Positions 22,272 to 40,305 of a DNA stretch of 61,176 bases are shown here, piece after piece. The position numbers were made by a program, and so were the translations under genes. This DNA comes from a virus, in IMG/VR virus record IMGVR_UViG_3300025108_004851, positions 1 through 61,176 of that record; one strand, given 5' to 3'. Each line of letters opens with the position of its first letter. Positions within the stretch are counted from its first letter, which is position 1. The notes under the pieces are model-generated. The model saw nothing but the letters and a program-made list of their open reading frames with translations. It had not been told where the DNA came from and did not search any database.

Positions 22272-22276
22272 ACACT

Positions 22277-23152
22277 ATGCGTTTAATGGAAGTCACTCAA
22301 CAAAGGATTGACACTATCAATGAAAGTGGTAGTATGTCTGGCGTTGGTGCTATACATATCTCTGAAATAGAGCCTACATTAGATTATTTAGAAAAATCTT
22401 TGGGCATGGACTTAAAAAATAACGTACTAGGTTCCGTAGGTAAAAAAGAATTTTCAGGAGATATAGATGTTGCAATTGATGTCGAGCCTGAAGCAATGCC
22501 TGAACTATTAGACAAATTAAAAATAAATCCAGATATCATAGACATTGCTAAAAGTAGTGTGATTATGACAAAGGTTAAAATTGCCAAGTTTGATGCAAAC
22601 AAAACATGTGATAGAGCAAGGACAGGATATGTGCAACTAGACTTTATGCCAGGGAATCCGGGTTGGATGAAAACATATTATCATTCTCCTGCAGACGGTG
22701 AAAGTCAATACAAGGGTGTGTTTAGAAACATTTTGTTAGCAGTCATATGTGCATTATATGATAGAAAAGATTCTGCAGAACAAACAGAAGATGGCAGAAG
22801 TTTACAATCAGAGCAATACTTATTTTCACCCACAAAAGGTTTAGTCAGAGTTAGAAGAAATCCTGTGCCTAAAAAGAACGGCGAAGGTTACACTAAACAA
22901 AATAACAATGTTATTATAGACGGTCCTTGGTTAACACCAGATGAAATAGTAAAGGTATTAGGACTTGATAAGAAAGAAGATTTAAACAGTTACGAAAGTT
23001 TAAAAAGTGCAATAGAACAAAACTATCCAGCAGAACTCACAGCAAAGATACTAGACAGTTTTGCTAACAACAAGCAAGTACAAGACATCGGTGTTCCATC
23101 AGATTTACAAATACAAGAAGATGTATTAATGTACATGAGGAAACTGTCGTGA
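22277..23152 (+). CDS. nucleotidyltransferase-like protein with capsid-targeting N-terminus
   Basis: 291 aa. The N-terminus MRLMEVTQQRIDTINE before Ser resembles a head-targeting leader (possible cut after E16). The core matches the pol-beta nucleotidyltransferase superfamily: G52-S53, then EFSGDIDVAID with D62 and D64, and a third acidic residue at D122 in GYVQLDFMPG. Such enzymes transfer NMP to proteins, RNA or small molecules. The substrate is unknown. It overlaps the ligase-like gene by 4 nt. If packaged, it would be delivered with the DNA, as T4 Alt is (inference). Confidence 0.65.
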   Translation: MRLMEVTQQRIDTINESGSMSGVGAIHISEIEPTLDYLEKSLGMDLKNNVLGSVGKKEFSGDIDVAIDVEPEAMPELLDKLKINPDIIDIAKSSVIMTKVKIAKFDANKTCDRARTGYVQLDFMPGNPGWMKTYYHSPADGESQYKGVFRNILLAVICALYDRKDSAEQTEDGRSLQSEQYLFSPTKGLVRVRRNPVPKKNGEGYTKQNNNVIIDGPWLTPDEIVKVLGLDKKEDLNSYESLKSAIEQNYPAELTAKILDSFANNKQVQDIGVPSDLQIQEDVLMYMRKLS

Positions 23153-24279: not shown

Positions 24280-25103
24280 TGGAGTTAACACTAGTAAATC
24301 AAGAGTTAGCAGAAGCAAGACTGTTTAGATATTCTAGAAGTTTTGGTGCTTTTACAGGAAGACAAGTCGCTGACTTAATGTTTCTAAATACATTAGTATT
24401 ACAATTATTGTTTTTAGACGATAAAACAGTTAAGAAAGCAATGAGTTATGCAAAACTAACAGCATCTTATGGTTCATTTTCTTTATTTAGAACAGCGGCA
24501 ACAGACTTATATTTGTTGGCTTATGCTTTAAATTATCCAGATAATAGAAACATGAAATTTTCAAAGCACGTTGAAAGTTTATCATTTCTAAAAACACTAC
24601 AGTTTGATCACAAGATGTTTTTAAGGTATATGCGTATGGTTGCTCAAGCACATAATGATAAGCAATATGCAACTACATATTTTTACAGATTAGAAACACA
24701 ACTTAAAATACGTGATTCTCGTTACAAAAGGTGGCGAAGATTGATAAGTACATATAGTACTTTAAAATTTGCACAAAAGAATGCCTTGATTGCTCAAATA
24801 TTATTTGAAATCAAAAGGCAAGGTGGCGGAGCAGGTAGAGGTTCAGAGCTTGTTCCTGCATTAGAACCATTCCTCAAAAAGAGAGGTTATAGCAATTCTG
24901 ATAGTCAGTTACAAAAGCAAGTTGATAAAGCAAACAGCACATCTTTTGCTAAAAGAGCCGCAGGTACTGTAGCAGGTGCTATAGCAGGTAAATATGCAGT
25001 AGATAAATTTGCAAAAGCAAAACCATCTACACAAAAGAAGATAGGCACAGGTATAGGAGCAATAGCAGGTTACTGGGCTAGTGGAAGGAAGAAACAAAAA
25101 TGA
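24279..25103 (+). CDS. internal head protein candidate with C-terminal glycine zipper
   Basis: 274 aa. Starts MELTLVNQELAE then AR, a good gp21-type site at E12. The main part is helical and basic. The C-terminal 60 residues contain AAGTVAGAIAGKYAVDKF and GTGIGAIAGYWASG, two glycine-zipper hairpins of the kind that insert in or span membranes. The protein ends KKQK. A packaged membrane-active protein could help DNA passage across the inner membrane (inference). Overlaps neighbours by 1-4 nt. Confidence 0.6.
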   Translation: MELTLVNQELAEARLFRYSRSFGAFTGRQVADLMFLNTLVLQLLFLDDKTVKKAMSYAKLTASYGSFSLFRTAATDLYLLAYALNYPDNRNMKFSKHVESLSFLKTLQFDHKMFLRYMRMVAQAHNDKQYATTYFYRLETQLKIRDSRYKRWRRLISTYSTLKFAQKNALIAQILFEIKRQGGGAGRGSELVPALEPFLKKRGYSNSDSQLQKQVDKANSTSFAKRAAGTVAGAIAGKYAVDKFAKAKPSTQKKIGTGIGAIAGYWASGRKKQK

Positions 25104-25642
25104 AAATATTTGAAATAATAAACGAGTTAGACGGAAAGGATGTTGATCTTAAACCAGATACTGGACGTAATTTTTCAAGTGGTGGACAAAGTTCAGAGAT
25201 AAACCAAAACGACCTAAGAGATATGAAAATTGCATATAGAAAAAATCCACAGTTTGTGGCATTAGTTATGCAAGGACTAGCACAACCTCATATTAAAACA
25301 GTTGCTCAAGCAGTACAATGGGCACAGAACGAAGTAGTAGCAGGCAATGACGCTAAACCATCCGATACTAAATTACCAACATCAGGACCTGCTAAACAAA
25401 ATCCTCGATGGTGGGACGATGCTCAACTTAGTGTTAGCAAGTCTAAAAATAAAGATTTTGGCAAGAATTATAGTTCAAGCGGCAGTAAACGAGGTAAACT
25501 TAGCGATCTTATTCCAGGCATGGATAAGGTAAAAGACAAAATTGCTGATTTAAAAAATTATACAAAAAATAAAACAGGTTTTGACATAGACGGTGCTGAT
25601 AGCAGTTCTAGTAGAGCCGCTGATTACTTAAAAGGCAAATAA
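25100..25642 (+). CDS. putative internal head protein
   Basis: 180 aa. The N-terminus MKIFEIINE is a compact capsid-targeting-like leader, with possible cut after E9. The rest is hydrophilic: NPQFVALVMQGLAQPHIKTVAQAVQWA forms one helical segment, followed by a Lys/Ser-rich low-complexity tail. No enzyme motif. Last gene before the hairpin and late promoter at 25654-25682. Confidence 0.55.
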   Translation: MKIFEIINELDGKDVDLKPDTGRNFSSGGQSSEINQNDLRDMKIAYRKNPQFVALVMQGLAQPHIKTVAQAVQWAQNEVVAGNDAKPSDTKLPTSGPAKQNPRWWDDAQLSVSKSKNKDFGKNYSSSGSKRGKLSDLIPGMDKVKDKIADLKNYTKNKTGFDIDGADSSSSRAADYLKGK

Positions 25643-25653
25643 GCCACTACATA

Positions 25654-25682
25654 TTACATACTCACCGTATGTAAGATAAGTA
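25654..25682 (+). promoter_or_regulatory. hairpin followed by late promoter box GATAAGTA
   Basis: An 8-bp inverted repeat (ttacatac, loop tcacc, gtatgtaa; 25654-25674) abuts GATAAGTA at 25675-25682. The box is exactly 5 nt (ttagc) from the ATG at 25688, a leaderless arrangement. Confidence 0.65.
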
Positions 25683-25687
25683 TTAGC

Positions 25688-26749
25688 ATGCCTTTATTTG
25701 ATGACCCACTTATTATAAACGATCACATCTTAGAAATGAGTTCCACTCAGTCTATGTTTGGTAACTTTGAAATTCCAATGGAAGTTGCTAACGCAAGACA
25801 AGGAAAACTTATAACAACATCCACTCCAGGTTTTGAAAAATCAAGAGAGTTTTTTAACTACGAATGGTTCTATTCATTTAACACTGAGTTCTTTGAACAA
25901 GACGACAATGTGCTTTGGGCAGGTAGTTGCATAGTGCAAGACTTTGCAAGTTTATTTGAGAAGAAGGGTTGGACAACTAATAGAGTGTTTAGATATGGGC
26001 AAGGGGTGTTTAATATGAAAACTCTTGCAATGCATTTGAGGTGGTTGTTTGAAGAAGATTCGTTGTACAACGAAGATATATGGGAAGGCTATAATGCCAA
26101 AGAGTTTAAATTAGGCAAAAGAGACAGAGGCTTTTTGCTTGAAAAAATGCTTAACTTTGATAAGGTTGTATTGTTTAGTGGAACCACAGACATATATTAC
26201 GATGAAGTAACAGGGCAAGACCTACATGCGGCACCTATACTAAAATATCTTGACCCAGCAAGGCATAAAGTTCGTAGAATGTCACATGACGAAGTGTTGC
26301 AATCACACAAAGAGGTGTTAGAACTAGTACACAAACATATATGTAAAGATGTATTGTTTATACTAAGCCCATTTGGATTTGCTAGCCAGTCGTTTGAAAA
26401 CGACCATCCACCTTTACCATTATCGTTGGTTGCTAAATCAAGTATTCGTATTGCTGTAGAAGAGACTATGCGAGAAAATTACTTTCCTCTGTACGAAATG
26501 ATACAAGAATACTTTACAGAATACAGAGACAAAGGTTTACATATACATAACGACATTATTCAAGCAATGATTGAAATATTAGGTACATGGTATGGCGACT
26601 TTAGAGATGCAAGAACTAAGTCCGAAGTAATGAAAGACTTCCAAGTTACAAGAAAAGCATTTGTTCAACGGGCATTACTTAATAAGTCTCTACCTAAAGA
26701 GGAAGTATACATGCCACAAACAACAAGATCCAAAGACGTCCCTTTCTAG
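25688..26749 (+). CDS. GSCFA-domain (SGNH-like) hydrolase candidate
   Basis: 353 aa. AGSCIVQDFASLFEKKGW (GSC at residues 79-81) resembles the family-naming G-S-C-F-A block. It is followed by YGQGVFNMKTLAMHLRWLF, a SGTTDIYYD strand (compare T-L-G-T), RHKVRRMSHDEVLQSHKEV, FILSPFGF and FPLYEMIQEYF, all in the order expected for GSCFA proteins, a branch of SGNH/GDSL-like acyl hydrolases. The leaderless late promoter implies a virion protein, perhaps a polysaccharide de-esterase on the tail (inference). Confidence 0.55.
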   Translation: MPLFDDPLIINDHILEMSSTQSMFGNFEIPMEVANARQGKLITTSTPGFEKSREFFNYEWFYSFNTEFFEQDDNVLWAGSCIVQDFASLFEKKGWTTNRVFRYGQGVFNMKTLAMHLRWLFEEDSLYNEDIWEGYNAKEFKLGKRDRGFLLEKMLNFDKVVLFSGTTDIYYDEVTGQDLHAAPILKYLDPARHKVRRMSHDEVLQSHKEVLELVHKHICKDVLFILSPFGFASQSFENDHPPLPLSLVAKSSIRIAVEETMRENYFPLYEMIQEYFTEYRDKGLHIHNDIIQAMIEILGTWYGDFRDARTKSEVMKDFQVTRKAFVQRALLNKSLPKEEVYMPQTTRSKDVPF

Positions 26750-26774
26750 ACTCCAAAACAATATTGTAAAAACT

Positions 26775-26782
26775 GATAAATA
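26775..26782 (+). promoter_or_regulatory. late promoter box GATAAATA
   Basis: GATAAATA 40 nt before the ATG at 26823; a leader with RBS tggaga at 26812-26817 follows, unlike the leaderless cases. Confidence 0.75.
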
Positions 26783-26822
26783 GTGTAAGCAAGTACATTA
26801 ATGTCTTGCTATGGAGACACAC

Positions 26823-27227
26823 ATGGCGTTAACAAGAAGCGGAGCAATGAATAACCAGGAAGTTTTATCTGGTAATATAGAGTTTTATTCATTGTTTACA
26901 TCATTAGATATTACCAGAACAGGTGATTTTAGTGATAACACACAAAAAGACTTTGAGAGTATAGTACAAGTAATAGGATTAAGGGCAATGCCTGTAGTAA
27001 TGAACAATCCTGTTGCATTAAGTGGAGTAGGTGCATTAGTATTAGAAGGTTACGGTGCTCCAACACTAACAGGAGCAGGTTGGATTTTTAAATTTGCTTT
27101 TGAACGTGAAGGCGTTCATACTATAGATACTCTCAGAGATGAATTAAATGGGATAGTACTGAACGGTGGTACAATAGATACGAAGGATTCTGTAAATATG
27201 GAATTCTCCAAACAAGATTTATTATAA
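26823..27227 (+). CDS. late protein, probable virion component
   Basis: 134 aa from the ATG at 26823, chosen for the correctly spaced tggaga; an ATG 12 nt upstream overlaps that RBS. Beta-rich (FYSLFTSLDITRTGDFSD, VIGLRAMPVVMNNP, LEGYGAPTLTGAGWIFKFAFE). No family recognised. Late promoter and composition suggest a small structural protein. Confidence 0.65.
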   Translation: MALTRSGAMNNQEVLSGNIEFYSLFTSLDITRTGDFSDNTQKDFESIVQVIGLRAMPVVMNNPVALSGVGALVLEGYGAPTLTGAGWIFKFAFEREGVHTIDTLRDELNGIVLNGGTIDTKDSVNMEFSKQDLL

Positions 27228-27237
27228 GAGATAAACA

Positions 27238-27486
27238 ATGGCTAGGAAAAAAGTAGAAACTAAAGAAATACCACAACCGGAACAATATATCCAGGAAGGC
27301 GGTGTAGAAGCACATATTATTGCAGATATGCTGAGGATAGAAAGTATCACTACAGAACTCAGAGAGTTTAAAGAAGATACAAAATCAAGGTTTGATAAAT
27401 TAGAAGGCTGGATTGTTGCAATAGTAGGTATTACAATTACTACATTATTAGCCACTGTAGGAACATTAATAGGAAGTATGTTATGA
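27238..27486 (+). CDS. small coiled-coil plus transmembrane protein (XhlA-like)
   Basis: 82 aa. Residues about 22-55 form a charged heptad-like helix (IADMLRIESITTELREFKED), followed by one transmembrane helix WIVAIVGITITTLLATVGTLIGSML to the C-terminus. This architecture is that of XhlA-type membrane proteins, which assist holins, but also of other phage tail-anchored proteins. Position among late genes would fit a lysis role; no endolysin is seen beside it. Confidence 0.45.
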   Translation: MARKKVETKEIPQPEQYIQEGGVEAHIIADMLRIESITTELREFKEDTKSRFDKLEGWIVAIVGITITTLLATVGTLIGSML

Positions 27487-27962
27487 AAATAGTAGAAGTT
27501 GCAGGTCCAGATAAATGCTGGCCCGGACATAAGAAAGTTGGCACTCAGCCAGGAACAGGAAAGAACAAAGGCAAACGTGTAAACAAGTGTAAAAAAATTG
27601 AATCTGTCAAGGAAGAAGAGATTACTTTAGAGGATACACAAGACTTCCACGAGGAATTTGGTGTTCTAGGATATAGCGAGTGCGACGAAGACGTATTTGA
27701 AGCAGAGTATCAAGGACGTAAAGTTAAACTAAACAAGCCTATGCAAGGTGACGTTAAAAAGTTTAAAGTATATGTCAAAGATCCAAAGACAGGTAATGTT
27801 AAAAAAGTAAACTTTGGACACGGCGGTACAAGTGCTAAGGGTAAGTCAATGCGTATTAGGAAATCTAATCCTAAAGCAAGAAAAAGTTTTAGAGCAAGAC
27901 ATAATTGTGCTAATCCAGGACCAAAAACAAAAGCACGTTACTGGTCATGCAGGAAATGGTAG
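27483..27962 (+). CDS. basic internal head protein with conserved C-terminal module
   Basis: 159 aa. Starts MKIVEVAG. A Cys/Gly/Lys-rich segment (CWPGHKKVGTQPGTGKNKGK) precedes an acidic stretch that ends DVFE followed by AEYQGRKVKL, a possible gp21 site. The C-terminal part (KKFKVYVKDPKTGNVKKVNFG, RKSFRARHNCANPGP, KARYWSCRKW) is a module that I recall from many marine phages. After cleavage the C-terminal fragment is strongly basic, suggesting DNA binding inside the head. Overlaps the previous stop by 4 nt. Confidence 0.6.
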   Translation: MKIVEVAGPDKCWPGHKKVGTQPGTGKNKGKRVNKCKKIESVKEEEITLEDTQDFHEEFGVLGYSECDEDVFEAEYQGRKVKLNKPMQGDVKKFKVYVKDPKTGNVKKVNFGHGGTSAKGKSMRIRKSNPKARKSFRARHNCANPGPKTKARYWSCRKW

Positions 27963-28307
27963 ATGAGAATCAACGAAGTCGACGATACAGAAATATTTGA
28001 AGCCAGACTTGTTTGGCGTAAAATGGGTAAAACAGTAAAACGTGCTGTTCGATGTACTAGTGGTAGACGTAAAGGTAGAGTTGTATCTAAGCCTAGCCAA
28101 TGTGGTGCACCAATAGACTTCAAAAAACGATTAACACTTAAAAAAACAAAAGCAAAATTTGGTGCCAGGATAGCTCGTAAGGCGAGAAGATCTAAAAAAT
28201 ACAATCCTATAAGTAGGAGGGTAGCATCACTTAATAAATCAGTTAGGTTTAAGCCTACAAGAAAAACTAAATCAACATCAAACAGATTCCCAAATAGGAA
28301 AAAGTAA
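27963..28307 (+). CDS. highly basic, histone-like internal head protein
   Basis: 114 aa. The leader MRINEVDDTEIFE before Ala is one of the clearest capsid-targeting/gp21 sites here. The remainder is extremely rich in Arg and Lys (VKRAVRCTSGRRKGRVVSK, RIARKARRSKKY, FKPTRKTKSTSNRF), and after removal of the acidic leader almost no acidic residues are left. A DNA-condensing or charge-neutralising packaged protein is the natural reading. It starts right after the previous TAG and abuts the giant gene. Confidence 0.7.
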   Translation: MRINEVDDTEIFEARLVWRKMGKTVKRAVRCTSGRRKGRVVSKPSQCGAPIDFKKRLTLKKTKAKFGARIARKARRSKKYNPISRRVASLNKSVRFKPTRKTKSTSNRFPNRKK

Positions 28308-31300
28308 ATGAAATTTAACGATGTACAGACTCTTGAGTCGTTATTAAAAAAATTGAATGAGTACGGGAATACATCAGGCAGTCCATCATATAGTGCTGGC
28401 GGAACTAGTTCTACAAAAAGCTCACCTACTACATCGCAATCATCTACTAGTGTAACAAAGCAATCAACAAGTCCTACAGCAAATGGTACCAAACCACCTG
28501 AGCCTAAATTAGTCAAAGTAACAGCAAAAGATCTTGACGATGGGTCAGAGTTTAAAGACAATAAAGGAAACGTACAAGGAAAGGTTGTAAGTAAAGTAGG
28601 TATGTTGCCAAAACCTGATAGAGTTGTTGTACAAACTACTGACAATGAATATCATTTATATGATCCTAAAATGGAAGTAATGGTAGATGAACATATAGGT
28701 CATGACATCCTTGATAAAATGACTATTAAGAAAAGCCATAAGAAAAACTCATTAAAAAGACGAATTAAAAAACTTACAAGAAAACGTTTAGGTGAAGCAC
28801 CTCTTTGTGAGATTAACTTTAACAGAAAAGAAATTGTTACAGACGCATTAGACTCACCTGTTAGATGTGGCTTTGAAGCGGAAACTTCATGGGACGGTAT
28901 CTCTGGCAGTAGCGGCGAAGATGTTAACGATATGGGCTGGGACGAAGTATCTGATTCTGTATATGTATCAAGTAGCGACAATGATTATATTATGGAAGGC
29001 TTTTCAGAGTATGTAAGAGAAAACTTAGTACCTGATTACTACGACGATGTAATGGCAAGGTACATGGAAAATGAACGTGATGAAGATTCATCGTATACAC
29101 GTTTTATGGAAGAAGGCTCAGACGCACCTACAATAGATGCTGTAGAAGAATACAGAGATAATTTTAAACATGAAGATCCTAACGAATATGAAAACCGTGA
29201 AGAAGACGGTTGGGAAAAAATAAACTGGATAAGAGAATACATTGACGAAGAATACGAAGATCAATACTTAGACTTTATACGAGAATATTTAGACGACGAC
29301 GGTGAGGTTTATCAAGAAGCATATGAAGAAGCAGAAAGAGAAACATCAATAGACGAATGGATAGGTAATGAATTTTACAGTATGTCAAATTTCTTAGACG
29401 ACTATGGTATTGATTATTCAGAACTAAATGGTGAAGGTGGATTGCATGAGATTGCAGACCTATTATCTGAATGGCAAAAACAAAACAGTAAATTTTCACA
29501 GTATCCAGAAGTAGGCGATTATGATAACACTTCAGGTGATGCAGAAAATTGGGCAGTTGAAACAGATAGTAGTATTGACTCATCCGGACAAGGTGCAGAA
29601 ATTATTTCCCCAGTCTATGAGACTCCAAGAGAGATGCTTGAAGAACTAAAAAGTTTTTGTGAATGGTTAGAGGAAAAAGGAGCAGACACAAACAGTTCAA
29701 CAGGCTTACATGTTACTATGAGCTGGTACGGAGAAAATCCTAAGTTCACTCAAGATGAAGACGACGAATTTTGGGGTAGCAAAGGCGGACCAAATAAATT
29801 AAAAATGGCATCACTACTAGGTGACACTTATCTATTACAAACATTTGGTAGAGAAAACAATTCTTATACAAAACAACAAAGTAAGAATATAAAAAGAAAA
29901 GCCAACGATGCACGGAAATTTTCAGGCAAAGGCACAGAAGGATTTTCAGATATCGAAAGAGAATTAGCAAAAGGTATAGACGGTGGTAAATTTAATAGTA
30001 TTAACTTCAAGGGTCAGATTGATAGCAAAACAAAAACCAACCTCATAGAGTTTAGAATAGGTGGCGGTGATGATTATCATTTAGACATGCCTAAGATTGT
30101 TAAAGCAGTTATACGTTATGCAACGGTAATGAAAGCAGGTTATACTGATGCGTTTAATAAAGACTATGCAAATGCTATACACAGAATAGTTCACGGCGCC
30201 GGAAAAATTAGTCGAGCAGATATGAACATTGGCTCAGACGTTAACGAGCCACTATTAGATTTGTTTAAGAGTATGATAAGCAAGGATAACTATTTTAATG
30301 GTGTTACTGCAATAACTAATGCTTACTTGTCTTTATATCAAGTAGGAATAAACGAAGAAGAACCTGAGCCTGATACAAACGCATCTCAACAAGAAGCACA
30401 AAAACAATACGTTAAAGGCATGGGATTACTTGCTCTTGATGTAGGATTAGATAGGCACCGAACAAATATTAATGCTAAATCAATAGGCGTTATTCGTAGA
30501 AGTTTTAAAGAATTTGATATATCAGAAGATCAATTTACTGATCTTATATTTTCTCGAATAAACCAATACCCAATTCCTACACAAAATGACAGGATAGACC
30601 AAAAAGCATCTGTACTTAAAAAAGGTATTGACTCTTTATTTAAGAAAGACATGTTATCAATGCCAAAATTTTTAAACATACCAAAAGCAGAAAGAATTGT
30701 TAAAGGTACATGGAATGCAATACACAGCGATGGTTGGTCTAAAGAAGATCAAGAAGAGTTAATAGACAAATTAATAAATCTAACTACACCAGATGTAGCA
30801 GATGAAACTAAAAGAAACAATATAAAATATAGCATCATTAATATGATAGAAGATGAAGAGTTTAACAGTTTCTATTCTAACATGACCAGAGGCGGATATA
30901 ACAGTTCTAATCCTCCAGCACAGCCTGGTGAGATTTACTATGAGAACGAATTTAAAGATCTAATGAAGTTCCTCAATAAGTATAACAATTATTCGCAACC
31001 AGTTGCACCTCATTTTAACTCAAACATATCATCCAGCGATACATACTTAGAAAACTACTTAAACTCGTACACAATGAAATTGCGTAAACGTTTCTTACAT
31101 TTAGAAGAAATCAAAGACGACAACTTCCAGTTATATGTTGAGTCTGTTAAGAAAATAGGGGAACTATCGAGGACGTTACTTAATGCATGGGGAGACCATG
31201 AACAAATAGAATTTGACGGAGTACATAATAGATTAGTATTTACTGTTTACGTTAAAGAAAAACTGATAGAGATTTTTAAAGATATTAAAAGTAATGAAAT

Positions 31301-34300
31301 GTCAAATCCAAATTCTGGAAGTGTTTTAAATCGTTTGGGAGATCGTATGACAGATGGTATACGAGATGCACTTGGCAGGTATTATAAAGATATCGAAGGC
31401 GGAGATCCTGATAATTTAAAAATTATTGGCCAAACTGGTGATGTTAAAACAGCAGTAAAGCAAAAATTTAAGGCTTTAAAAGATTGGATGCAAGGATTTG
31501 ATAAAATTGCACAAGAAGTTGGATTTGAAAGCCAAGCAGATGAGATTGCAGGCAAAAATAATATTCCTGGCAGAGAAGATGACTTTGCGAGAAGTGTACA
31601 GGAAAGACCACCTATAACATTAAATATACCTGCACATTCTCAGGCATACATGTGGACAGATCTGTACAGAGATTTAACTAATCCAGACTTTACTAAACAG
31701 GTTAGAAAATCAAAACAACTAAGAGCTAGATCACAGTTTACAACTAAGTTGAACAGCGGAAAAGTTTTTGTAATTCCATCGGCACATTTCAGCCAGGCTC
31801 TAGATGCATATGAAATACAAAAGTATGAAGAGAATCATCGACCATGGAGAGTTAAAGCCGCTCAAAAGGTAATGAAAGAGTTTTATAAAACATACGGAAA
31901 AGCATTTAAAGATCTCGTTGATAACCCTGCTGACTATGTTAGTATAAACGGACTGAAGGCTGAATTAAAGAAGGAAGGCATAGCAATATCAACTGAAGGT
32001 GATTCTAGAGAACCTAATGTAGAACCATTAGTACCTCATTCAGAGACGTCACAACCAGGAGTAGGAACGCCTCTGTCTACAACAGCCGCCGCGGCTTGGC
32101 ATGTAAACAACCCAGAGTTATCTAAAAAAGCAGACGCATTAGATAAAAACGCAGACCAACATCGAAATAATACAATATCAACGCCACCAGAAAAAGAGGT
32201 TAATTCAGATTATGATAAAGCCAGAGCAGAACATCCAGGCTTCGATAGAATGATGCAACGCGGTATGCAGAATTACTTAGCACGTGGCGAAGTAAATTAC
32301 CTAGTAGGATTTTTAAACGATCCATTGAAAGATAATGTTTTCAAATCGCATGTTTTAAATACTATAGCAAATCGAGGTGATATGGAAAACGGTCCTTTTG
32401 CTACTTTCCAAGATGCATTAGCAGTTACTCGTAGACAAGGTCATGAAAGTGTATTTACTAAATTTAATAAACTGTCATTGCAGGAACAAATAGCAAAGTT
32501 AGAAAACATAGATGCAAATAGAATTAGTCAATTACATGGTAAATTTGTTGAAGGAAATTTAAACAGAACTGAACTATCCAAAGACCAATCCAGATTTGAT
32601 GCTTTTGTTAACAAAATTAATGCAGGAATACCATTTCAAATGACTGATAAAGCCGGCGGCGGCGAAATTGTATTACACCCAGATATGATTAAGGGTGTAA
32701 CAGTTGCAAGTGATTTACCTGATCCTATAGACATAGATGGCAATAACGTTGCTTGGAACAAATTAGAAAAAACAGCAGAATTTGGTTCTAGGACAGGCGG
32801 AGAAAAAGTCTCTAACAAAGGTGAAGTAGCAGAAGGTATATTAGGATGTGCCACATTTGCTAGATTGCTTAAACGACCTATTGCTCCTATCACAGACGGT
32901 GATATAAAATCAGTTATGAAAAGATTGCCAACAGACGCACCAGATAAAGGTGGTTGGCATGAGTTAACACTTACTGCTAGAGAAACAGATAATCCTATAG
33001 CAGACTTCTTTACACTCACACTTAATCTTAAATCAGATACTTATAAAGATTTTATAAACCCTGAGAAATGGTCTCTGATGAATAATATCAGTAACAATGT
33101 TGTAGGATATGTAAATGACAACATGGACAAGTACACAAAACTTTTTGCTAAAAACGGCAAAGTTGATGCTGTAAAAGTAATTGCTGATGGTGTAAGCGGA
33201 GAAACAGATACCAAAGTAGATGTATTTTTAACTCACAGTTTAGACGGCGGCCCAGAAAGAACACTACAACATTATGATATGAGTGTTAAAGTAGGTAGTA
33301 CAAAACAAATGGGACAAGTAGGCGGCGGAAAAACAGCACAAGGTGTATCAACGGAACGTTTCTTTATATTGAAAGAAATGTTTGAAAAATTTGGTGCAGA
33401 TTTATCTGTAATTGAAAACCAGTTTATGTCTTCAGCAACAATAAATGATGCTTATGTTATTGCATACAGTGAAGCGGCAAAACAAATAAACACTCATCTA
33501 ACAACTGAAGATAAAGAAGTAGATTGGCTTATGCAATTCTTGAATACTATTAAGTTCTTTGCCACTCTCAATGACGATAGAGTTAAGTTAGTGCAGTTTG
33601 AAGATACTTTAAAAGGTGGCTACTATGTGCTAGACTTTAAAAAGTTAGACAGAATGATGGATAAAGACAAAGTTGATCTAGAAGCGGTATTTATAGATGA
33701 TAAAGCTCAGCCAAAAATTACTATTATTAACACAGTAAATAACAAACCGTTTTTATCTATAAGAAAAAAACAAGCACAAAATGACGGCTACATTAGAAAC
33801 TACATTGAAAAAGAAAAAGGCTTAGTAGAGTTAATCAAAGTAAGAGGCTCGGGTATGCGTAAGAAAGTTGAAAGTGTCCAAGAAAGAGCTAGTTACGGTG
33901 TTTCTCTTGCAAACAAGGAAAAAATCCCTGCAATGATTAAATTAGTAGGTAAACTATTTCGCAAAAAACTTCCAACAGTAGAAGTGCAAAACAAATTAAG
34001 ACAAGAGTTTAATATTCAAGCCTTCGAAGCAAGGCATGTTATTAGCATGTGGAAAGAATTGAATAGTGTTAAGGAAGGTGCAGTACCTAACAACGATACA
34101 ATCAGAAAGTTAAAAGAAATTTTTGCAAAACCTTTAATGTCTGATGATATTAAATCACAAATGGATGCGTATATATGTATTCCAGATCCTGCAATGATTA
34201 GAGACTTTAGAGCCGCTAGAGCTCAATACGGCGACAATTTTGACATGAGAAGTATTGTTAGAGGTTATGCAAAAGTAAAATTACACAAAACATTACAAAA

Positions 34301-34316
34301 GCAATTAAGTAAATGA
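28308..34316 (+). CDS. 2002-aa giant internal protein with amidoligase-like domain
   Basis: N-terminal MKFNDVQTLESLLKKLNE resembles the neighbouring targeting leaders. A Ser/Thr-rich region follows, with a possible internal cut at LGE before APLCEI (near residue 165). Residues about 185-600 look like the Amidoligase_2 family (glutamine-synthetase-like fold): GFEAE (188-192), TDSSIDSSGQGAEIISP (from about 419), GLHVTMSW (from 466) and IEFRIGGG (from about 580), with a very acidic insert (about 215-390). The long middle is helical. Residues about 1500-1665 show NKGEVAEGILG, TKVDVFL (D1638) and MSVKVGST (K1661), a possible PD-(D/E)XK-like nuclease core. It is probably a virion protein, given its neighbours. 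Confidence 0.65.
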   Translation: MKFNDVQTLESLLKKLNEYGNTSGSPSYSAGGTSSTKSSPTTSQSSTSVTKQSTSPTANGTKPPEPKLVKVTAKDLDDGSEFKDNKGNVQGKVVSKVGMLPKPDRVVVQTTDNEYHLYDPKMEVMVDEHIGHDILDKMTIKKSHKKNSLKRRIKKLTRKRLGEAPLCEINFNRKEIVTDALDSPVRCGFEAETSWDGISGSSGEDVNDMGWDEVSDSVYVSSSDNDYIMEGFSEYVRENLVPDYYDDVMARYMENERDEDSSYTRFMEEGSDAPTIDAVEEYRDNFKHEDPNEYENREEDGWEKINWIREYIDEEYEDQYLDFIREYLDDDGEVYQEAYEEAERETSIDEWIGNEFYSMSNFLDDYGIDYSELNGEGGLHEIADLLSEWQKQNSKFSQYPEVGDYDNTSGDAENWAVETDSSIDSSGQGAEIISPVYETPREMLEELKSFCEWLEEKGADTNSSTGLHVTMSWYGENPKFTQDEDDEFWGSKGGPNKLKMASLLGDTYLLQTFGRENNSYTKQQSKNIKRKANDARKFSGKGTEGFSDIERELAKGIDGGKFNSINFKGQIDSKTKTNLIEFRIGGGDDYHLDMPKIVKAVIRYATVMKAGYTDAFNKDYANAIHRIVHGAGKISRADMNIGSDVNEPLLDLFKSMISKDNYFNGVTAITNAYLSLYQVGINEEEPEPDTNASQQEAQKQYVKGMGLLALDVGLDRHRTNINAKSIGVIRRSFKEFDISEDQFTDLIFSRINQYPIPTQNDRIDQKASVLKKGIDSLFKKDMLSMPKFLNIPKAERIVKGTWNAIHSDGWSKEDQEELIDKLINLTTPDVADETKRNNIKYSIINMIEDEEFNSFYSNMTRGGYNSSNPPAQPGEIYYENEFKDLMKFLNKYNNYSQPVAPHFNSNISSSDTYLENYLNSYTMKLRKRFLHLEEIKDDNFQLYVESVKKIGELSRTLLNAWGDHEQIEFDGVHNRLVFTVYVKEKLIEIFKDIKSNEMSNPNSGSVLNRLGDRMTDGIRDALGRYYKDIEGGDPDNLKIIGQTGDVKTAVKQKFKALKDWMQGFDKIAQEVGFESQADEIAGKNNIPGREDDFARSVQERPPITLNIPAHSQAYMWTDLYRDLTNPDFTKQVRKSKQLRARSQFTTKLNSGKVFVIPSAHFSQALDAYEIQKYEENHRPWRVKAAQKVMKEFYKTYGKAFKDLVDNPADYVSINGLKAELKKEGIAISTEGDSREPNVEPLVPHSETSQPGVGTPLSTTAAAAWHVNNPELSKKADALDKNADQHRNNTISTPPEKEVNSDYDKARAEHPGFDRMMQRGMQNYLARGEVNYLVGFLNDPLKDNVFKSHVLNTIANRGDMENGPFATFQDALAVTRRQGHESVFTKFNKLSLQEQIAKLENIDANRISQLHGKFVEGNLNRTELSKDQSRFDAFVNKINAGIPFQMTDKAGGGEIVLHPDMIKGVTVASDLPDPIDIDGNNVAWNKLEKTAEFGSRTGGEKVSNKGEVAEGILGCATFARLLKRPIAPITDGDIKSVMKRLPTDAPDKGGWHELTLTARETDNPIADFFTLTLNLKSDTYKDFINPEKWSLMNNISNNVVGYVNDNMDKYTKLFAKNGKVDAVKVIADGVSGETDTKVDVFLTHSLDGGPERTLQHYDMSVKVGSTKQMGQVGGGKTAQGVSTERFFILKEMFEKFGADLSVIENQFMSSATINDAYVIAYSEAAKQINTHLTTEDKEVDWLMQFLNTIKFFATLNDDRVKLVQFEDTLKGGYYVLDFKKLDRMMDKDKVDLEAVFIDDKAQPKITIINTVNNKPFLSIRKKQAQNDGYIRNYIEKEKGLVELIKVRGSGMRKKVESVQERASYGVSLANKEKIPAMIKLVGKLFRKKLPTVEVQNKLRQEFNIQAFEARHVISMWKELNSVKEGAVPNNDTIRKLKEIFAKPLMSDDIKSQMDAYICIPDPAMIRDFRAARAQYGDNFDMRSIVRGYAKVKLHKTLQKQLSK

Positions 34317-34426
34317 ACGAAGAAATAAAAGTAAGAGAACCGCAACTGCCTGTAGAAGGCGAATACACACTTTGTAATAGAGGTGAAGTTGCTGTATATA
34401 GAAATGGGAAATGGGTAAGACCGTGA
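34313..34426 (+). CDS. 37-aa small ORF between the two large cargo genes
   Basis: ATGA overlap with the stop of the giant gene. The product MNEEIKVREPQLPVEG and a YTLCNRGEVAVYRNGKWVRP end look like a compact beta protein. Its TGA overlaps a GTG at 34423 that could start the next gene. The coupled layout on both sides and sensible composition support a real gene; function unknown. Confidence 0.5.
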   Translation: MNEEIKVREPQLPVEGEYTLCNRGEVAVYRNGKWVRP

Positions 34427-37290
34427 AGCAATCAATATTTGAAGCAATGGTAAGTACATTACCACACAATGTTCAAGGAACACCTGTTCCTAGAGCCGAG
34501 ATGCCTCAATTAAAAGTGCCAGACTTAGAAAATTATAATACTGTACGAATAGATTTTCCAATAGATAGAATTAAACCAGTACAAACAGAAAGAGTGCCAG
34601 GACTAGCAAGAAAGGTTGCTCGAGATTTTGATGGTAAAGACAAACCGTTTATATTAGACAAAGACTACAAACTTGTTAACGGGCATCACAGATATGATGC
34701 CGCTAGATTGCTAGGTAAAGAAGTTGTAGATGTAGTTATAATCAGAGATAAAACCTTAGATCAACTAATGGGACTGCATAAAGATACAACAAGCAACACA
34801 CCAACTATTCAAACTGAAGACGACATGTCTGACTTTCACCGCAAACTAAAAATCGCACTAGAGAAAAGAAACCTTTTCGCTGACGGCGGAGGCGGCGGTG
34901 GCGGTGGAGGCGGTGGCGGCGGAGCCGGAGGTGGTGGTGCCGGTGGTGGTGCAGGAGCCGGAGGTGGTGCTGGAGCAGGAGCAGGAGCAAGTGCCGGAGC
35001 AGGAGCAAGTGCCGGAGGAGACTCAGGAGGCGACAGCGGTTCATCAGGTAGCAGTGATTCAGGACCAAGTACAGACAGTGGTGATAGTTCGCCAGCACCT
35101 GCAAGAGGTTATATGTACTTTGGTTCAATGCCAGCATACAGTAAAAGCAAAAAGAAGAAAAAGAAAAAGAAAAAAACTAGTACTAAATTTGGCAAAGGTG
35201 CATCGGTTTATGAAGCACAAGAAAATACTATATATGCAAAATGTGAATTAGAACATATTGTAGATGGTGTCGATAAAGGAAACTTTTTATTCAAGCAAGA
35301 ACCTGGTAAGCCTGTACTAGTTGTAGGAACAGTTACAGGACTAACACCAGGTAAGCATGGTTTTCATATACATGAATTTGGAGACCTAAGCAATGGCTGT
35401 GAAAGTGCAGGCGGACATTATAATCCAGACGGTGTAGATCACGGAGACTTAGATAGCGGACATGCAGGTGACTTAGGTAACATAGTTGCTGATGAAAACG
35501 GTATTGCAAAAATAGGAATAGTTTTAAAACGTGTAGACTTACACGGAGATAGAAACATTGTAGGCAGAGCAATAGTTGTTCATGCTGATGAAGATGATTT
35601 AGGCAAGGGCGGAGATGAGGAAAGTGCAAAAACAGGTAATGCAGGTGATAGATTAGGTTGTGGTGTTATTAGATTAGCAACATTAAATGAAACCATAGAA
35701 GCCGCACAAGATATGAAAGCATTAATGAAAGGCATAGATTCAGACTTAGCACAACGTAAAAAAGACCTCAAAAAGAAAATTAAGGCAAGTGTATACGAAG
35801 CACCAATAATTAGACCACAAGATTCATATGATCCAAACGCCAACGATGCATATAATTCTGCAACAAATAGACAACCTCCTAAATATGATTATGATCCTGA
35901 GGTAGATTATAGACCAGGTAAAAGTTTAGGTAAAATTCCTAACATACAATCTGAAACAGAAGTAGTACAGATGCCTAATAGAGATTTGTATTTGTTTTAT
36001 TCTAATACTATGCCTAAATCTACTACACCTGAACAAAAGACAATGTGGCAAAAATTTGTAACAGCAATGTTACACAATCCAAAAGCAAATCAAACTGGTC
36101 CTACCAAAGAAAAAAATGTAATAGGTTTTTTAAAATTAAAACCTTTTGAAGATGGTTATAGAGTTGCTGGTGTTGGAATGGATCCTGAAATACGAGGACA
36201 AGGCAAAGCAATTAAATTATACATGGCTTTTAGTGCCTGGAAAAGTGTTCCTATATATTCTGACTTTACACAAACGCCTAGTGCTAAAACAATGTGGAAT
36301 AGTATAATAGGCCGTTATCCTAAAAGAGTTGTTGCATATGATCAACAAAGTAAACAAGATATACCGTTATCTAAAGCAGGTGAGATGTATCAAGACGCAC
36401 CACCTGACTATAAAAAATTAACTCAATTCGACGTAGCGAAAGCTCATAGTGGCACTAAACTGTTTAAATTATTACCAGAAGGTGTAACAAAGGGCAACTT
36501 TGGTGGACTTATATATCCTCGACTACCACATGAAGAAGTGGTAGATGCCATTAGTGAGTGGGAGTACGGTAACACACCTATTGAACTTAGTAATGGATAT
36601 GTTATAAATGCCAGAGAAGAAGGCTATAACGAAGACGACAATGCTTGGGTATTATTAGACCCACAGGGTAAAATAATTGATGATGGTGAAGGTTCTATTG
36701 AAGATGTAATGCAGGACTTTACACCAATAGCAATAGAAGAAAACTTTGCTGACGGTAAAAAGAAAGGCAAAAGTCGTCCAGGTAGAGTAAAACGTTCAGG
36801 AGCAAGTTGCAATGGCTCAGTAACTGATCTGCGTAAACGTGCAAAAAATAGCAGTGGTGAGAAAGCAAAAATGTATCACTGGTGTGCTAACATGAAGTCT
36901 GGTAAAAAGAAAACTAAAGAAAGTTACTATAGTAGAATGGCAGTTGATAAGATAGAAATGAGACCAAAAGACTTTAATGACAAGTACGGTACAGCAGACG
37001 CCTATACTGGCATAGCTCAGCCTCAACAGAAACTAAAACCATCTAAGTGGGAAGTTGGTAACCCAACAGGACCTCATAGCGAAAATGTTTTTATAAACAT
37101 TCGCACTAATCAAGTATCAGGAGCCACTGCAATAAAACAAATAACTGCTCAATACACACATGACCAAATGGTTAAACCTCTAGAGCAGGGCGGTTTAGGT
37201 GCAAGGCAGACAAAGAATACAAGTGATAACAAATACTATATGCCTTATGTGTTATTTGATAAACATGTAAAGTCCGGAAAGATAAAATAG
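34411..37290 (+). CDS. ParB-like / Cu-Zn superoxide dismutase / GNAT polyprotein, putative packaged head protein
   Basis: 959 aa from ATG 34411; GTG 34423 would give MKQSIFE before AM, a perfect leader. Residues 45-120: ParB-like fold with LVNGHHRYDAARLLG (H92-H93-R94). Then a Gly/Ala run, a Ser-rich part and ten Lys. Residues about 270-420: complete Cu/Zn SOD with GFHIHEFGD (H319, H321), GGHYNP (H336), H344, HAGDLGN (H351, D354), VVHADEDDLG (H391), and cysteines C330 and C417. The SOD lies between two identical sites, ASVYE before AQ (E268) and ASVYE before AP (E463), so cleavage would free a 195-aa enzyme. Near 560-650: GNAT motif VGMDPEIRGQGKA. Near 785-835: basic Cys module (RPGRVKRSGASCNG, MYHWCANMK). 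Confidence 0.85.
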   Translation: MGKTVKQSIFEAMVSTLPHNVQGTPVPRAEMPQLKVPDLENYNTVRIDFPIDRIKPVQTERVPGLARKVARDFDGKDKPFILDKDYKLVNGHHRYDAARLLGKEVVDVVIIRDKTLDQLMGLHKDTTSNTPTIQTEDDMSDFHRKLKIALEKRNLFADGGGGGGGGGGGGGAGGGGAGGGAGAGGGAGAGAGASAGAGASAGGDSGGDSGSSGSSDSGPSTDSGDSSPAPARGYMYFGSMPAYSKSKKKKKKKKKTSTKFGKGASVYEAQENTIYAKCELEHIVDGVDKGNFLFKQEPGKPVLVVGTVTGLTPGKHGFHIHEFGDLSNGCESAGGHYNPDGVDHGDLDSGHAGDLGNIVADENGIAKIGIVLKRVDLHGDRNIVGRAIVVHADEDDLGKGGDEESAKTGNAGDRLGCGVIRLATLNETIEAAQDMKALMKGIDSDLAQRKKDLKKKIKASVYEAPIIRPQDSYDPNANDAYNSATNRQPPKYDYDPEVDYRPGKSLGKIPNIQSETEVVQMPNRDLYLFYSNTMPKSTTPEQKTMWQKFVTAMLHNPKANQTGPTKEKNVIGFLKLKPFEDGYRVAGVGMDPEIRGQGKAIKLYMAFSAWKSVPIYSDFTQTPSAKTMWNSIIGRYPKRVVAYDQQSKQDIPLSKAGEMYQDAPPDYKKLTQFDVAKAHSGTKLFKLLPEGVTKGNFGGLIYPRLPHEEVVDAISEWEYGNTPIELSNGYVINAREEGYNEDDNAWVLLDPQGKIIDDGEGSIEDVMQDFTPIAIEENFADGKKKGKSRPGRVKRSGASCNGSVTDLRKRAKNSSGEKAKMYHWCANMKSGKKKTKESYYSRMAVDKIEMRPKDFNDKYGTADAYTGIAQPQQKLKPSKWEVGNPTGPHSENVFINIRTNQVSGATAIKQITAQYTHDQMVKPLEQGGLGARQTKNTSDNKYYMPYVLFDKHVKSGKIK

Positions 37291-37297
37291 ATAAATA
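37290..37297 (+). promoter_or_regulatory. late promoter box GATAAATA, leaderless geometry
   Basis: GATAAATA overlapping the polyprotein stop codon, then caatt, then ATG at 37303: 5 nt and no RBS. Confidence 0.8.
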
Positions 37298-37302
37298 CAA
37301 TT

Positions 37303-37629
37303 ATGCTTATAAACGACATTATAACAGAAACAACTTCCGGTGGTATTGCCATTGTTGCTTCACCAATGGGCAAAATGCAAAAGAGACCTAACCCAAGTGT
37401 TTTTGCAAAAAGCAAAAAGAGAGTTTCAGAAGATACAGACCCAAAAGCAGATCCAGAAATTGTTGCCAAGTTTGCTAGGGTAAGTGATAAAGACAGATCT
37501 TACTATATTATGAAGTGGGCTGAAGAAAAAGGAATTAATAGCGACGATGCTATGTGCCTAGCAGGTTATGTAAGAGATGGATATATAGGCGCAGGTGCTT
37601 GGAACTGGGCATATCGACCAAAAGGTTAA
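37303..37629 (+). CDS. small internal-protein candidate
   Basis: 108 aa. Leader MLINDIITE resembles the head-targeting N-termini, followed by TTSGGIAIVASPMGKMQKRP, a pattern I associate with small marine phage proteins. The C-terminal half (YYIMKWAEEKGINSDDAMCLAGYVRDG, then WNWAYRPKG) is a helical module. Transcribed from its own leaderless late promoter. Function unknown. Confidence 0.6.
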   Translation: MLINDIITETTSGGIAIVASPMGKMQKRPNPSVFAKSKKRVSEDTDPKADPEIVAKFARVSDKDRSYYIMKWAEEKGINSDDAMCLAGYVRDGYIGAGAWNWAYRPKG

Positions 37630-37631
37630 TT

Positions 37632-37856
37632 ATGAAAGCAGTTAAATGCAAAGACGGCCACCTCAGTTTCATTAGTTCTAATGATGCGAGACTCTTCAAC
37701 AAAATAGACTTTGACAGATTTTTAGATATAAATACATTAGACGAAGGAACTTTACATCAATGCGAAGAGATGTATAAACAAAACGTCATCCGTAAAATAA
37801 CTACAAAGGAAGGAAAAGTTGGCTACAAAATCTACCCACAAAAAACAGAAGTATAA
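37632..37856 (+). CDS. hypothetical small protein
   Basis: 74 aa from the ATG at 37632, 2 nt after the preceding stop; the open frame extends upstream but only in an alternative frame of the previous gene. Contains two Cys and a mixed alpha/beta pattern (CKDGHLSFISSNDARLFNKI). No family recognised. Its end overlaps the following TTG-start gene by 38 nt. Confidence 0.55.
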   Translation: MKAVKCKDGHLSFISSNDARLFNKIDFDRFLDINTLDEGTLHQCEEMYKQNVIRKITTKEGKVGYKIYPQKTEV

Positions 37857-38277
37857 CAAAAGACAGAAGCAAGATCTAGCAGTTAAGTTAGATAAACTTG
37901 CTCAAAATGTGTCTAAACGTGGTGCCTATGTGGTTACTAGGAATGCTACTAACGATTTCTTCGTTATAGTAGAGGCTTTAAATAAAAAGGTGGTATTGAC
38001 ACATATACTTCAAAAAAACACAGCACAAGGGCTTTGTGTACGTCTAAACAGCCGAAATAAGCCCAACTCACCTTATGAACCAGTGACAGATATGCAACTA
38101 ACTAGAACACAAAAGTTGTTAAATAGATATGCTGATCTATTCACCGAATCAATATTTCACAAATACACAATCAAAACAACAAAAAAGAATTTTACAAGAG
38201 ACGTGGCATTTATAAGATTACACGAAACAGTTCTCAAACTCAAAGGCATTGCAGAAGAGCTAAGACACCAGTTATAA
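37819..38277 (+). CDS. basic hypothetical protein with TTG start
   Basis: 152 aa. TTG at 37819 is preceded by aaggaagg with 5-nt spacing, and no ATG occurs until late in the frame, so TTG is the likely start. The N-terminus is Lys/Gln-rich (KSTHKKQKYNKRQKQDLAVK), then a beta region (GAYVVTRNATNDFFVIVEA) and a helical C-terminus. No domain recognised. Confidence 0.6.
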   Translation: MATKSTHKKQKYNKRQKQDLAVKLDKLAQNVSKRGAYVVTRNATNDFFVIVEALNKKVVLTHILQKNTAQGLCVRLNSRNKPNSPYEPVTDMQLTRTQKLLNRYADLFTESIFHKYTIKTTKKNFTRDVAFIRLHETVLKLKGIAEELRHQL

Positions 38278-38302
38278 AACTTTTAATAAATTTTGCAATT
38301 AT

Positions 38303-38310
38303 GATAAATA
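38303..38310 (+). promoter_or_regulatory. late promoter box GATAAATA
   Basis: GATAAATA 34 nt before the ATG at 38345, with a leader carrying taggaaa as a plausible RBS. Confidence 0.75.
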
Positions 38311-38344
38311 AGTGTAATAACTAACTTATAACTAGGAAATCACT

Positions 38345-39634
38345 ATGTTTTTGAATGAATTTAATCAAACATCAATTAGTAAGGTAGCATCGCTTAACAA
38401 AATGCTGTCTGAAGAATTTGGTATAAAAATCAATCCAGGAACAGTCAATCTCACAAAGTTAATGAAGATTAACGAGCAGGCCAAAGCGGCTTTGTATAAA
38501 ATTAGAGGTAGTAAGAAGAAATTTCAATTAGAGCCAGAGTATGCAAAATACTTAGGTTTAAAAGATATTTCAGAGACGATGATTGTTGAAGGGTACTACG
38601 AATCCAGCCCAGGCTACCAAGCACTAGAGGCTAAAATCTATGAAAGAGTAATGGAACTTTGTAATTCAGGGTACACGGCAGAAGAAGCCAGAAGCCAATG
38701 TATGAACGAAGTTAGACAAGACCCGTCTCATTGTTATGAAGATGCATGTACAGAGACTATGGTTATGTCTGCAATTGGCAAATTCGAAGAGTCATGTGGT
38801 AGTAAGCATGAATCAATTGAAGAAGAGTTAGGCCTTCCAGAAACTGATATGAGTCCAAGACTAGTAAGAGAACTTGCTACTGAAATTGGAATAGATCTTG
38901 CAACAATGGAAGATTACAATGCTATCGAAGAAAAACTTAAAACTTTTGCTGAAGTTAGTGGCAAAAGCAGAGACTCAGTTGTTGGTTTCCTAAACGGTCT
39001 CGAAGAAGATTCAGTAGTTAGTGGTATCCAAATGTTTGGCAGAAAGATTGAAGAGCAAAATAAATTTACTGGTGCTAGAAAAGATGCTATTGCACAAGGC
39101 AAAGATTCTTTTGAAGTAGATGGTAAAACATATAAAGTAACTGGTGATACTTCCGATGAAGAGGAAGCAGTAGAGGAAAGTACAATGTTTGATTCAATTA
39201 TAGATGAAATGCTTAACGAAGAAGTTGGCGAAAAAGAAGCAGAAGTTGTTATGGCTGTTAGAGCATTAGCAGATGATATTCAAGACCAAGTAGAAAGAAT
39301 TGGTAGAATGGTTAATGAAGATATTCCAGCAATAGCAGATTCTATTAGAACTGAAATGGGAGCCGATACAGCATTATCATTCTCAGATGGTTCATCACAA
39401 TTACTTACAGCACACTTAGAAGCAGTTAAGGCTGTTAAGTCTGCATTTGATCAACAAATTAGCGGATTAACAGGCGGCGAAATGGTTGGCGGTCTTGGTG
39501 ATACGGCAGATTTAGGTGCCGAACTAAACAGCGATCCTTCAATGGATAGTTTAGGAATGGAAGAGCCAGTAGCAGACAACGTTCCAGCAATGGCAGGCCC
39601 AGAAGAAGAGCCACTCGGAAGAGCAGAGGTTTAA
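38345..39634 (+). CDS. late acidic protein, possible head core or internal protein
   Basis: 429 aa, acidic and helical. The N-terminus MFLNEFNQTSISKVASLNKM is similar in style to the targeting leaders. A MIVE site followed by GYYESSPGYQ near residue 80 could be a protease cut. A Cys-rich helical segment follows (ELCNSGYTAEEARSQCMNEV, SHCYEDACTETM, ESCGSKH). The C-terminal third is helical with an acidic Gly/Ala/Pro tail. It could be a scaffold/core protein or packaged cargo; no function can be named. Confidence 0.6.
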   Translation: MFLNEFNQTSISKVASLNKMLSEEFGIKINPGTVNLTKLMKINEQAKAALYKIRGSKKKFQLEPEYAKYLGLKDISETMIVEGYYESSPGYQALEAKIYERVMELCNSGYTAEEARSQCMNEVRQDPSHCYEDACTETMVMSAIGKFEESCGSKHESIEEELGLPETDMSPRLVRELATEIGIDLATMEDYNAIEEKLKTFAEVSGKSRDSVVGFLNGLEEDSVVSGIQMFGRKIEEQNKFTGARKDAIAQGKDSFEVDGKTYKVTGDTSDEEEAVEESTMFDSIIDEMLNEEVGEKEAEVVMAVRALADDIQDQVERIGRMVNEDIPAIADSIRTEMGADTALSFSDGSSQLLTAHLEAVKAVKSAFDQQISGLTGGEMVGGLGDTADLGAELNSDPSMDSLGMEEPVADNVPAMAGPEEEPLGRAEV

Positions 39635-39637
39635 TTA

Positions 39638-39985
39638 ATGCTCATTTCAGAAGTAGTCAGTTCTGGAATGGCAGGTCCAGAAGATGAATTGGTAGTTGCC
39701 ATTGAGGACCTACTAAGTAGATATATGGCTGATGGTAATGACGAGGCTGATATCCCTACAGATGAATTCAAAAGTAATTTAGAGGCTGATATTAATAGGC
39801 CAATCGACATGGGCACTTTAATTAGTGTATTAGGTCAAAGCGGTTTTGCTAGTAGTGTAGATAAAACAACTATTAGAGCAAAAGGCGACCTAAGTAAGGA
39901 TATAGACACAGACCCAGAAAAAACAGTTGATGTTGGTAAAATGGCTGGTGATCAAGCCATGAAAGATATTAAGGCAGATCTATAA
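39638..39985 (+). CDS. small acidic late protein
   Basis: 115 aa, starting 3 nt after the previous stop. N-terminal MLISEVVSSGMAGPEDE recalls the leader pattern. Acidic throughout (DGNDEADIPTDEF, KDIDTDPEKTVD). A helix-turn-helix-like segment (MGTLISVLGQSGFASSVDKTTI) is not convincing as a DNA-binding motif. Role unknown. Confidence 0.55.
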   Translation: MLISEVVSSGMAGPEDELVVAIEDLLSRYMADGNDEADIPTDEFKSNLEADINRPIDMGTLISVLGQSGFASSVDKTTIRAKGDLSKDIDTDPEKTVDVGKMAGDQAMKDIKADL

Positions 39986-40305
39986 TGGCAAGTATATTTT
40001 CTAATGCGGCAACGGCCCGTAAAGATACTAGGAACAATTCAGTTATTCATGCTGAAGTGCGTAGCATTGAAACTGCTGTACTAGGTAACATTGATGCCGG
40101 AGTATTATACGCAAACGTATCTACAGGCACAACAATGACAGATAGTAATGCGTATTACAAAGCATACTATGGTGTTACTACAGATGTAACTAAAAAAGAT
40201 CAAGTAGACTATGTCTGTAAGTATTTTAAAGACTTAGGATATGGTGTCAAAATAGCACAAAACTTAACAACCACAGATACAATTACCTGGAATATTAGTT
40301 GGTAA
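39985..40305 (+). CDS. small late protein, probably structural
   Basis: 106 aa, overlapping the preceding stop by 1 nt. The repeating Thr/Asn/Tyr-rich beta pattern (VLYANVSTGTTMTDSNAYYK) and a C-terminal LGYGVKIAQNLTTTDTITW fit a small virion component. I recall related short proteins from marine T4-like phages without assigned function. Confidence 0.6.
   Translation: MASIFSNAATARKDTRNNSVIHAEVRSIETAVLGNIDAGVLYANVSTGTTMTDSNAYYKAYYGVTTDVTKKDQVDYVCKYFKDLGYGVKIAQNLTTTDTITWNISW

Follow-up and report, generated by a model that had tools for sequence, protein, structure and literature searches.

A Cu/Zn superoxide dismutase between head-protease-style sites in a predicted head-cargo precursor of a marine phage

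What is a Cu/Zn superoxide dismutase (SOD) doing in the middle of a large phage protein, between two copies of the same short peptide? This question is raised by a gene in the window, by which we mean the whole 61,176-nucleotide stretch of viral DNA analyzed here. The patterns described below suggest that the SOD is carried inside virions and reaches a new host cell together with the phage DNA. In the reading we prefer, to which we give a probability of roughly 0.7, the protein serves a marine T4-like phage as the precursor of head cargo, and the head protease would free the SOD for delivery with the genome. Packaging, cleavage, delivery, SOD activity, and benefit are what we infer from these patterns.

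The window protein and its SOD module

The gene (positions 34411..37290, with all of its features on the + strand; ORF list, translation, and Pfam) starts with ATG and encodes a putative mosaic precursor of 959 aa, P0001. The protein joins several unrelated domains, as polyvalent proteins do, and is predicted to be injected. A Pfam scan of the 959-aa protein gave Sod_Cu as the sole match (PF00080, residues 289-420, 35275..35670, E = 4.7e-44). By sequence, the protein begins with a capsid-targeting-like peptide, MGKTVKQSIFE/A (34411..34446), which contains an IFE/A site (a slash marks a putative cut throughout). Next come a ParB-like module (residues 28-130, 34492..34800), a segment common to relatives with a phrog_620 match at residues 75-118 (E = 7.4e-5), and a linker, first Gly-rich and then Lys-rich (34885..35199), that is shared with the related loci L071, L099, and L126. 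Beyond the SOD lies a module, ENFADGKKKGKSRPGR..YHWCANM (residues 775-834, 36733..36912), that is widespread among relatives. Residues 464-775 show no more than a motif resemblance to GNAT; Pfam gave no match and the GNAT-like label was rejected. When residues 459-763 were used as a search query, only two loci were found.

The first-pass annotation had described a complete Cu/Zn SOD, with all seven metal ligands and the disulphide cysteines, between two ASVYE/A peptides, and this description held. The peptides were located at residues 264-269 (35200..35217) and 459-464 (35785..35802), and H319, H321, H336, H344, H351, D354, H391, the pair C330-C417, and R414 are all present. The Cu/Zn ligands, disulphide cysteines, and Arg were invariant among 40 aligned phage SODs. 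We take the metal-binding residues to be those of human SOD1, which is consistent with the structure alignments here. A model of residues 269-463 (pLDDT 90.9) showed the SOD fold followed by a single long helix, with TM scores of up to 0.96 of target against SOD1 structures, and the closest solved structures were eukaryotic SOD1-type enzymes. The window SOD also matched a phage SOD family, phrog_1975 ('superoxide dismutase precursor', E = 1.8e-16). The window protein carries a complete Cu/Zn SOD, and its dismutase activity is a prediction.

The repeats and the fusion might be an assembly artefact or chance, given that the window is a single metagenomic contig. ASVYEA is the only 6-mer repeated in the protein outside the Gly/Lys stretches, and any repeated 6-mer arose in 71 of 5000 shuffles (~1.4%), a test of the repeat alone that ignores its placement at the SOD borders. 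A chance repeat, unlikely by this test, was overtaken by the family-wide pattern given below. The two copies differ in their codons (TCG/AGT, GTT/GTA, TAT/TAC), so a recent DNA duplication was rejected as their source. The relative L070, identical over the SOD but possibly not an independent sample, speaks against an artefact, and L071, with the same architecture and 79% identity over the SOD, contradicts it. We regard an artefact or chance as very improbable.

It had also been proposed that the SVYE repeats be compared in related phages. L071 keeps VYE/AQ upstream and ASVYE/AP downstream of its SOD, despite a different downstream protein, and the lack of conservation that would have spoken against the first-pass reading was thus not seen. 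Its homology to the window begins in the linkers, continues across the SOD, and ends at ASVYEAPI, with the ENFADG module and part of the N-terminus as exceptions, so the second ASVYE site is a module border. In L128, RLLE/AP and not ASVYE precedes the module that comes next.

The size of the released enzyme was less clear-cut than the 195 residues first suggested. The second ASVYE/A, on which that size depends, is present, but LNE/T (residues 425-428, 35683..35694), a C-side site at the usual family position that reads LNE/S in L071, offers a rival end giving a predicted mature SOD of 159 aa (residues 269-427, 35215..35691). In L099 the Lys-linker and the helix segment are contiguous, with no SOD between them: GKGIYE-TIEAAQD in L099 corresponds to GKGASVYE/A, the SOD, and LNE/TIEAAQD in the window. 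By this comparison the SOD insert spans A269 to E427, and its end at E427 argues for LNE/T as the true C-side site, at which the P1' Thr (428) is unusual. The last residue of the mature window SOD would be either E427, giving 159 aa, or E463, giving 195 aa, and the shorter product seems at least as likely as the longer. The Lys-rich tail after the SOD (residues 425-462, 35683..35796) forms one long helix in the structure model, and a cut at the second ASVYE would release this tail from the next module.

Sites bracketing the SOD across the phage family

Searching IMG/VR with the window SOD gave 139 confirmed relatives, of which 80 were kept. Together with other loci they supplied 167 frames, which were reduced to 50 non-redundant phage SODs at 90% identity; L069 (the window itself), SOD frames unmatched by the regular expression, and rows merged at 90% were left out. 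All 50 had [ILV]-x-E directly upstream of the SOD. The P3 residue was I in 28, L in 16, and V in 6, so that T4's L/I occurred in 44 of 50 and V in the window and five others. At P1', A was the most frequent residue (33), followed by D (5), S (4), Q (4), T (2), G (1), and N (1). On the other side of the domain, every one of the 24 proteins that extend beyond the SOD had a site within 14 residues of the SOD end, against a background of 20% for 14-residue windows further downstream. The C-terminal fusion was gained or lost in at least five changes on the SOD tree.

The 50 sequences share common descent and so do not amount to 50 independent events. The presence of the motif alone is not the strong part either, since the motif is by its definition picked up wherever it occurs, and shuffled linkers also held [ILV]xE, with a mean of 30 and a maximum of 41 among the 50 (2000 rounds). 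The strong part, as read from the alignments, is the fixed place and the invariant Glu. On the SOD-domain tree the P1 Glu had no changes and P3 had 16, all within I/L/V, while P8-P4, P2, and P1'-P6' had 13-25 changes each; P9 and P7' were likewise slow, with 5 and 4 changes. A cellular origin of the motif was rejected, as only 3 of 32 cellular SODs from a genome collection had it on the N-side (46 loci, of which 36 frames were read and four phage-like ones from MAG bins excluded; the other ten were unreadable by the regular expression). The relatives turn the single window case into a family rule, at the level of sequence, in which [ILV]-x-E brackets the SOD. The earlier view was supported in part: by comparison the sites resemble those of the T4 prohead protease and bracket the SOD throughout the family, while the rule itself is [ILV]-x-E and not literally SVYE.

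The SOD could instead be packaged within an uncut multidomain 'polyvalent' protein in which the [ILV]xE peptides are mere linkers. Multidomain phage and plasmid proteins with predicted injection are known from the available text of Iyer et al. 2017 (PMC5512222), and T4 packages and delivers foreign proteins fused to IPIII, as the accessible part of PMC9026906 describes. In an inert linker, however, neither an invariant Glu within a fast-changing stretch nor sites at both borders with varied partners would be expected, and the motif is scarce in the cellular SODs above. We therefore judge an uncut protein unlikely. On the sequence patterns, a head-maturation protease appears to free the SOD from its precursor.

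Upstream of the site, 48 of the 50 phage SODs carry a three-Cys propeptide (CPRTK..CxC), which was found in none of the 32 cellular SODs. Its three Cys were invariant in 46 aligned sequences, and the conserved Glu follows CxC by 8 residues in 42 of the 48 and by 7 residues in the other 6. A DNA-pattern scan for the propeptide gave 103 stretches, and 101 loci were read. An SOD was present in 94 of these (93 by regular expression, L181 by sequence); L231 and L238 were cut at the contig end, and L164, L190, L203, L214, and L252 were short frames of 32-35 residues that were taken as chance. The idea of a general tag was unsupported, as the scan showed the propeptide on SODs only. Since it is confined to SODs and also occurs deep within fusions, the propeptide is not just a targeting signal. 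It was poorly ordered in the model of L107. The eukaryotic copper chaperone CCS has a CxC end with a chaperone role. One tentative and rather doubtful idea is that the SOD is a pro-enzyme whose three-Cys propeptide would serve as a built-in metal/disulphide chaperone and be removed by the head protease, leaving a loaded SOD stored with the DNA. The propeptide is absent from the window SOD and L071, which counts against its being essential.

Four genes for SODs with this propeptide (L257-L260) were found in MAG bins assigned to Betaproteobacteria TMED41, Candidatus Pelagibacter, and Rickettsiales MED657. They probably represent phage contigs, and the bins give a weak hint of the host.

Neighbouring genes, fusion partners, and the head protease

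The SOD gene lies in a block of 18 genes with capsid-targeting-like N-termini (21438..40305, + strand), defined by a start pattern. The start M[KRLF][ILFM]x[DEN][ILVF] was found in 10 of the 18 block genes and in none of the other 47 + strand window genes (65 taken in total), with the pattern defined after viewing the block. A site within the first 40 residues occurred in 7 of 18 block genes and 5 of 47 genes elsewhere. The block includes a 2002-aa neighbour with an amidoligase-like match at residues 380-472 (28308..34316, + strand), in which LGE/A at residues 161-164 lies far upstream of the amidoligase-like stretch. With respect to T4 capsid-targeting sequences (CTS), only look-alike peptides were found here. 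The N-terminus of the window SOD protein departs from the start consensus of the neighbouring genes and is not kept in L071, which lacks the IFE/A site, and the targeting signal of this protein is therefore uncertain.

Elsewhere in the window, positions 2302-3876 encode a protein that resembles TonB-dependent receptors and whose start looks like a signal peptide, and host-type metabolic genes were found for methionine adenosyltransferase (5842-6939), serine hydroxymethyltransferase (14852-15994), and holo-ACP synthase (661-1041). Cys-rich metallothionein-like modules (CSDKCCGADVKAEDC..CPHCNC) occur in the cargo-like relatives L006, L016, L020, L004, L024, and L026, some of them directly after VTE/A or close to MKISELL starts. 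By their sequence, these modules are possibly metal-binding head cargo.

The SOD could also be an ordinary metabolic gene that acts in the infected cell and is not packaged, its sites being incidental or meant for another protease. This would suit the 26 of 50 proteins without a C-terminal fusion, which end within five residues after the SOD and many of which are small single proteins. Against it, the SODs on other contigs share the start consensus of the cargo-like neighbours: 17 of 33 had the strict pattern and 28 of 33 a loose one (the 33 starts include two internal Met, L126 and L148), compared with 1 of 47 other window genes for the loose pattern. The SOD is also fused to DUF6267, poly-Lys, and Gly-rich modules. 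We find a purely metabolic role quite unlikely, and return to the head-cargo precursor as the preferred reading.

With a simple score cut, the SOD partners formed eight groups on the downstream side and another eight on the upstream side; the upstream grouping covered 16 rows, among which L133 is probably a start-codon error. The partners included pterin carbinolamine dehydratase (L189), cytidylyltransferase together with DUF5661 (L196), and DUF6267 (L193), and in L220, a 2472-aa protein starting with MKISDLFEY, the SOD is close to the C-terminus. A DUF6267 protein is also encoded near the SOD gene in the window (23149..24279, + strand; sequence and Pfam), with LME/AARIQHAED at its N-terminus. 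In L193 and L241, LKE/AARIQHAED stands right after the SOD, so that the DUF6267 N-terminus forms an internal junction (Pfam was run on L193 only). It looks as if separate cargo genes were fused and their cut sites retained. That N-terminal site was absent from both of the DUF6267 relatives read from isolated cyanophages.

Which protease might cut these sites? Among 50 records, two had a T4-type prohead protease (PF03420) and two had gp23 (PF07068); among 20 records read next, the count was three for each. Most contigs and records are fragments, and neither protein was found in the window, itself a genome fragment. The SOD occurred together with both in the contigs G034, G051, and G054; the other two protease/gp23 records, G049 and G070, entered through the ENFADG module and lay outside the SOD check. 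Homology placed the gp23 sites at YLAE/A (G034), YLSE/Q (G051), SLQE/T (G054), and HLQE/S (G049), and P1' was as loose in the first three as in the SOD sites. The protease C-termini read AIYE/G (G034), PIYE/G (G054), PIYE/H (G051), and TIYE/S (G049), with SLQE/S instead of IYE in G070, one of the five proteases read. The IYE at the protease C-termini closely resembles the window SVYE. In T4, gp21 cleaves after L/I-X-E, CTS propeptides direct cargo into the head, and Alt receives a C-terminal cut as well, according to the accessible part of PMC9026906.

Proposed route and relation to known systems

Late in infection, the multidomain precursor would be synthesized and would enter the prohead core, probably through capsid-targeting-like sequences. 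After shell assembly, a T4-type prohead protease would cleave past [ILV]-x-Glu where modules meet. Within the head, this would release the eukaryote-type Cu/Zn SOD in folded form, as residues 269-427 or 269-463. The freed enzyme would remain beside the DNA, be delivered to the next cell, and clear superoxide there or in the particle.

Parts of this route have precedents. The T4 proteins IPI-III and Alt likewise have a short N-terminal peptide, [L/I]xE cleavage, and cargo retained in the head, and IPI is injected into the cell (available text of PMC9026906 and PMC9958956). The predicted phage precursors differ from them in placing enzyme modules between internal sites, in having SOD as cargo, and in allowing V at P3. 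Polyvalent proteins, as the available text of PMC5512222 presents them, share the mosaic multidomain build, the ParB-like domains, and the predicted injection; for them, embedded metallopeptidases were proposed for processing, whereas the sites here fit a head protease. A term search of that paper's text gave no hit for 'superoxide'. The chlorovirus PBCV-1 also encodes a Cu/Zn SOD, which is packaged in virions and linked to reduced superoxide in infected cells, but it is an algal virus, and the accessible part of PMC7019647 describes no propeptide or cleavage.

When 50,697 phage records were searched at the protein level, three hits came up at E ≤ 0.01, the best being the phage SOD sodC of Acinetobacter phage MD-2021a (35% identity over 54% of the query), and an SOD of the present type was not found there. 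A library of predicted virus structures gave 7 rows at E ≤ 0.001, of which the 5 named rows were from viruses of animals. Literature searches, with most subscription papers outside their coverage, found no phage SOD of this kind. The parts are known (T4 head cargo, polyvalent proteins, and the PBCV-1 virion SOD), and their combination is new as far as we found.

If the proposed route is true, phages use the head protease to cut enzymes, already folded, out of mosaic cargo proteins, and phage particles carry an antioxidant enzyme. The [ILV]xE motif at module borders would then be a sequence rule for finding head cargo in uncultivated phage genomes, and it would become testable what else marine phages inject along with their DNA.
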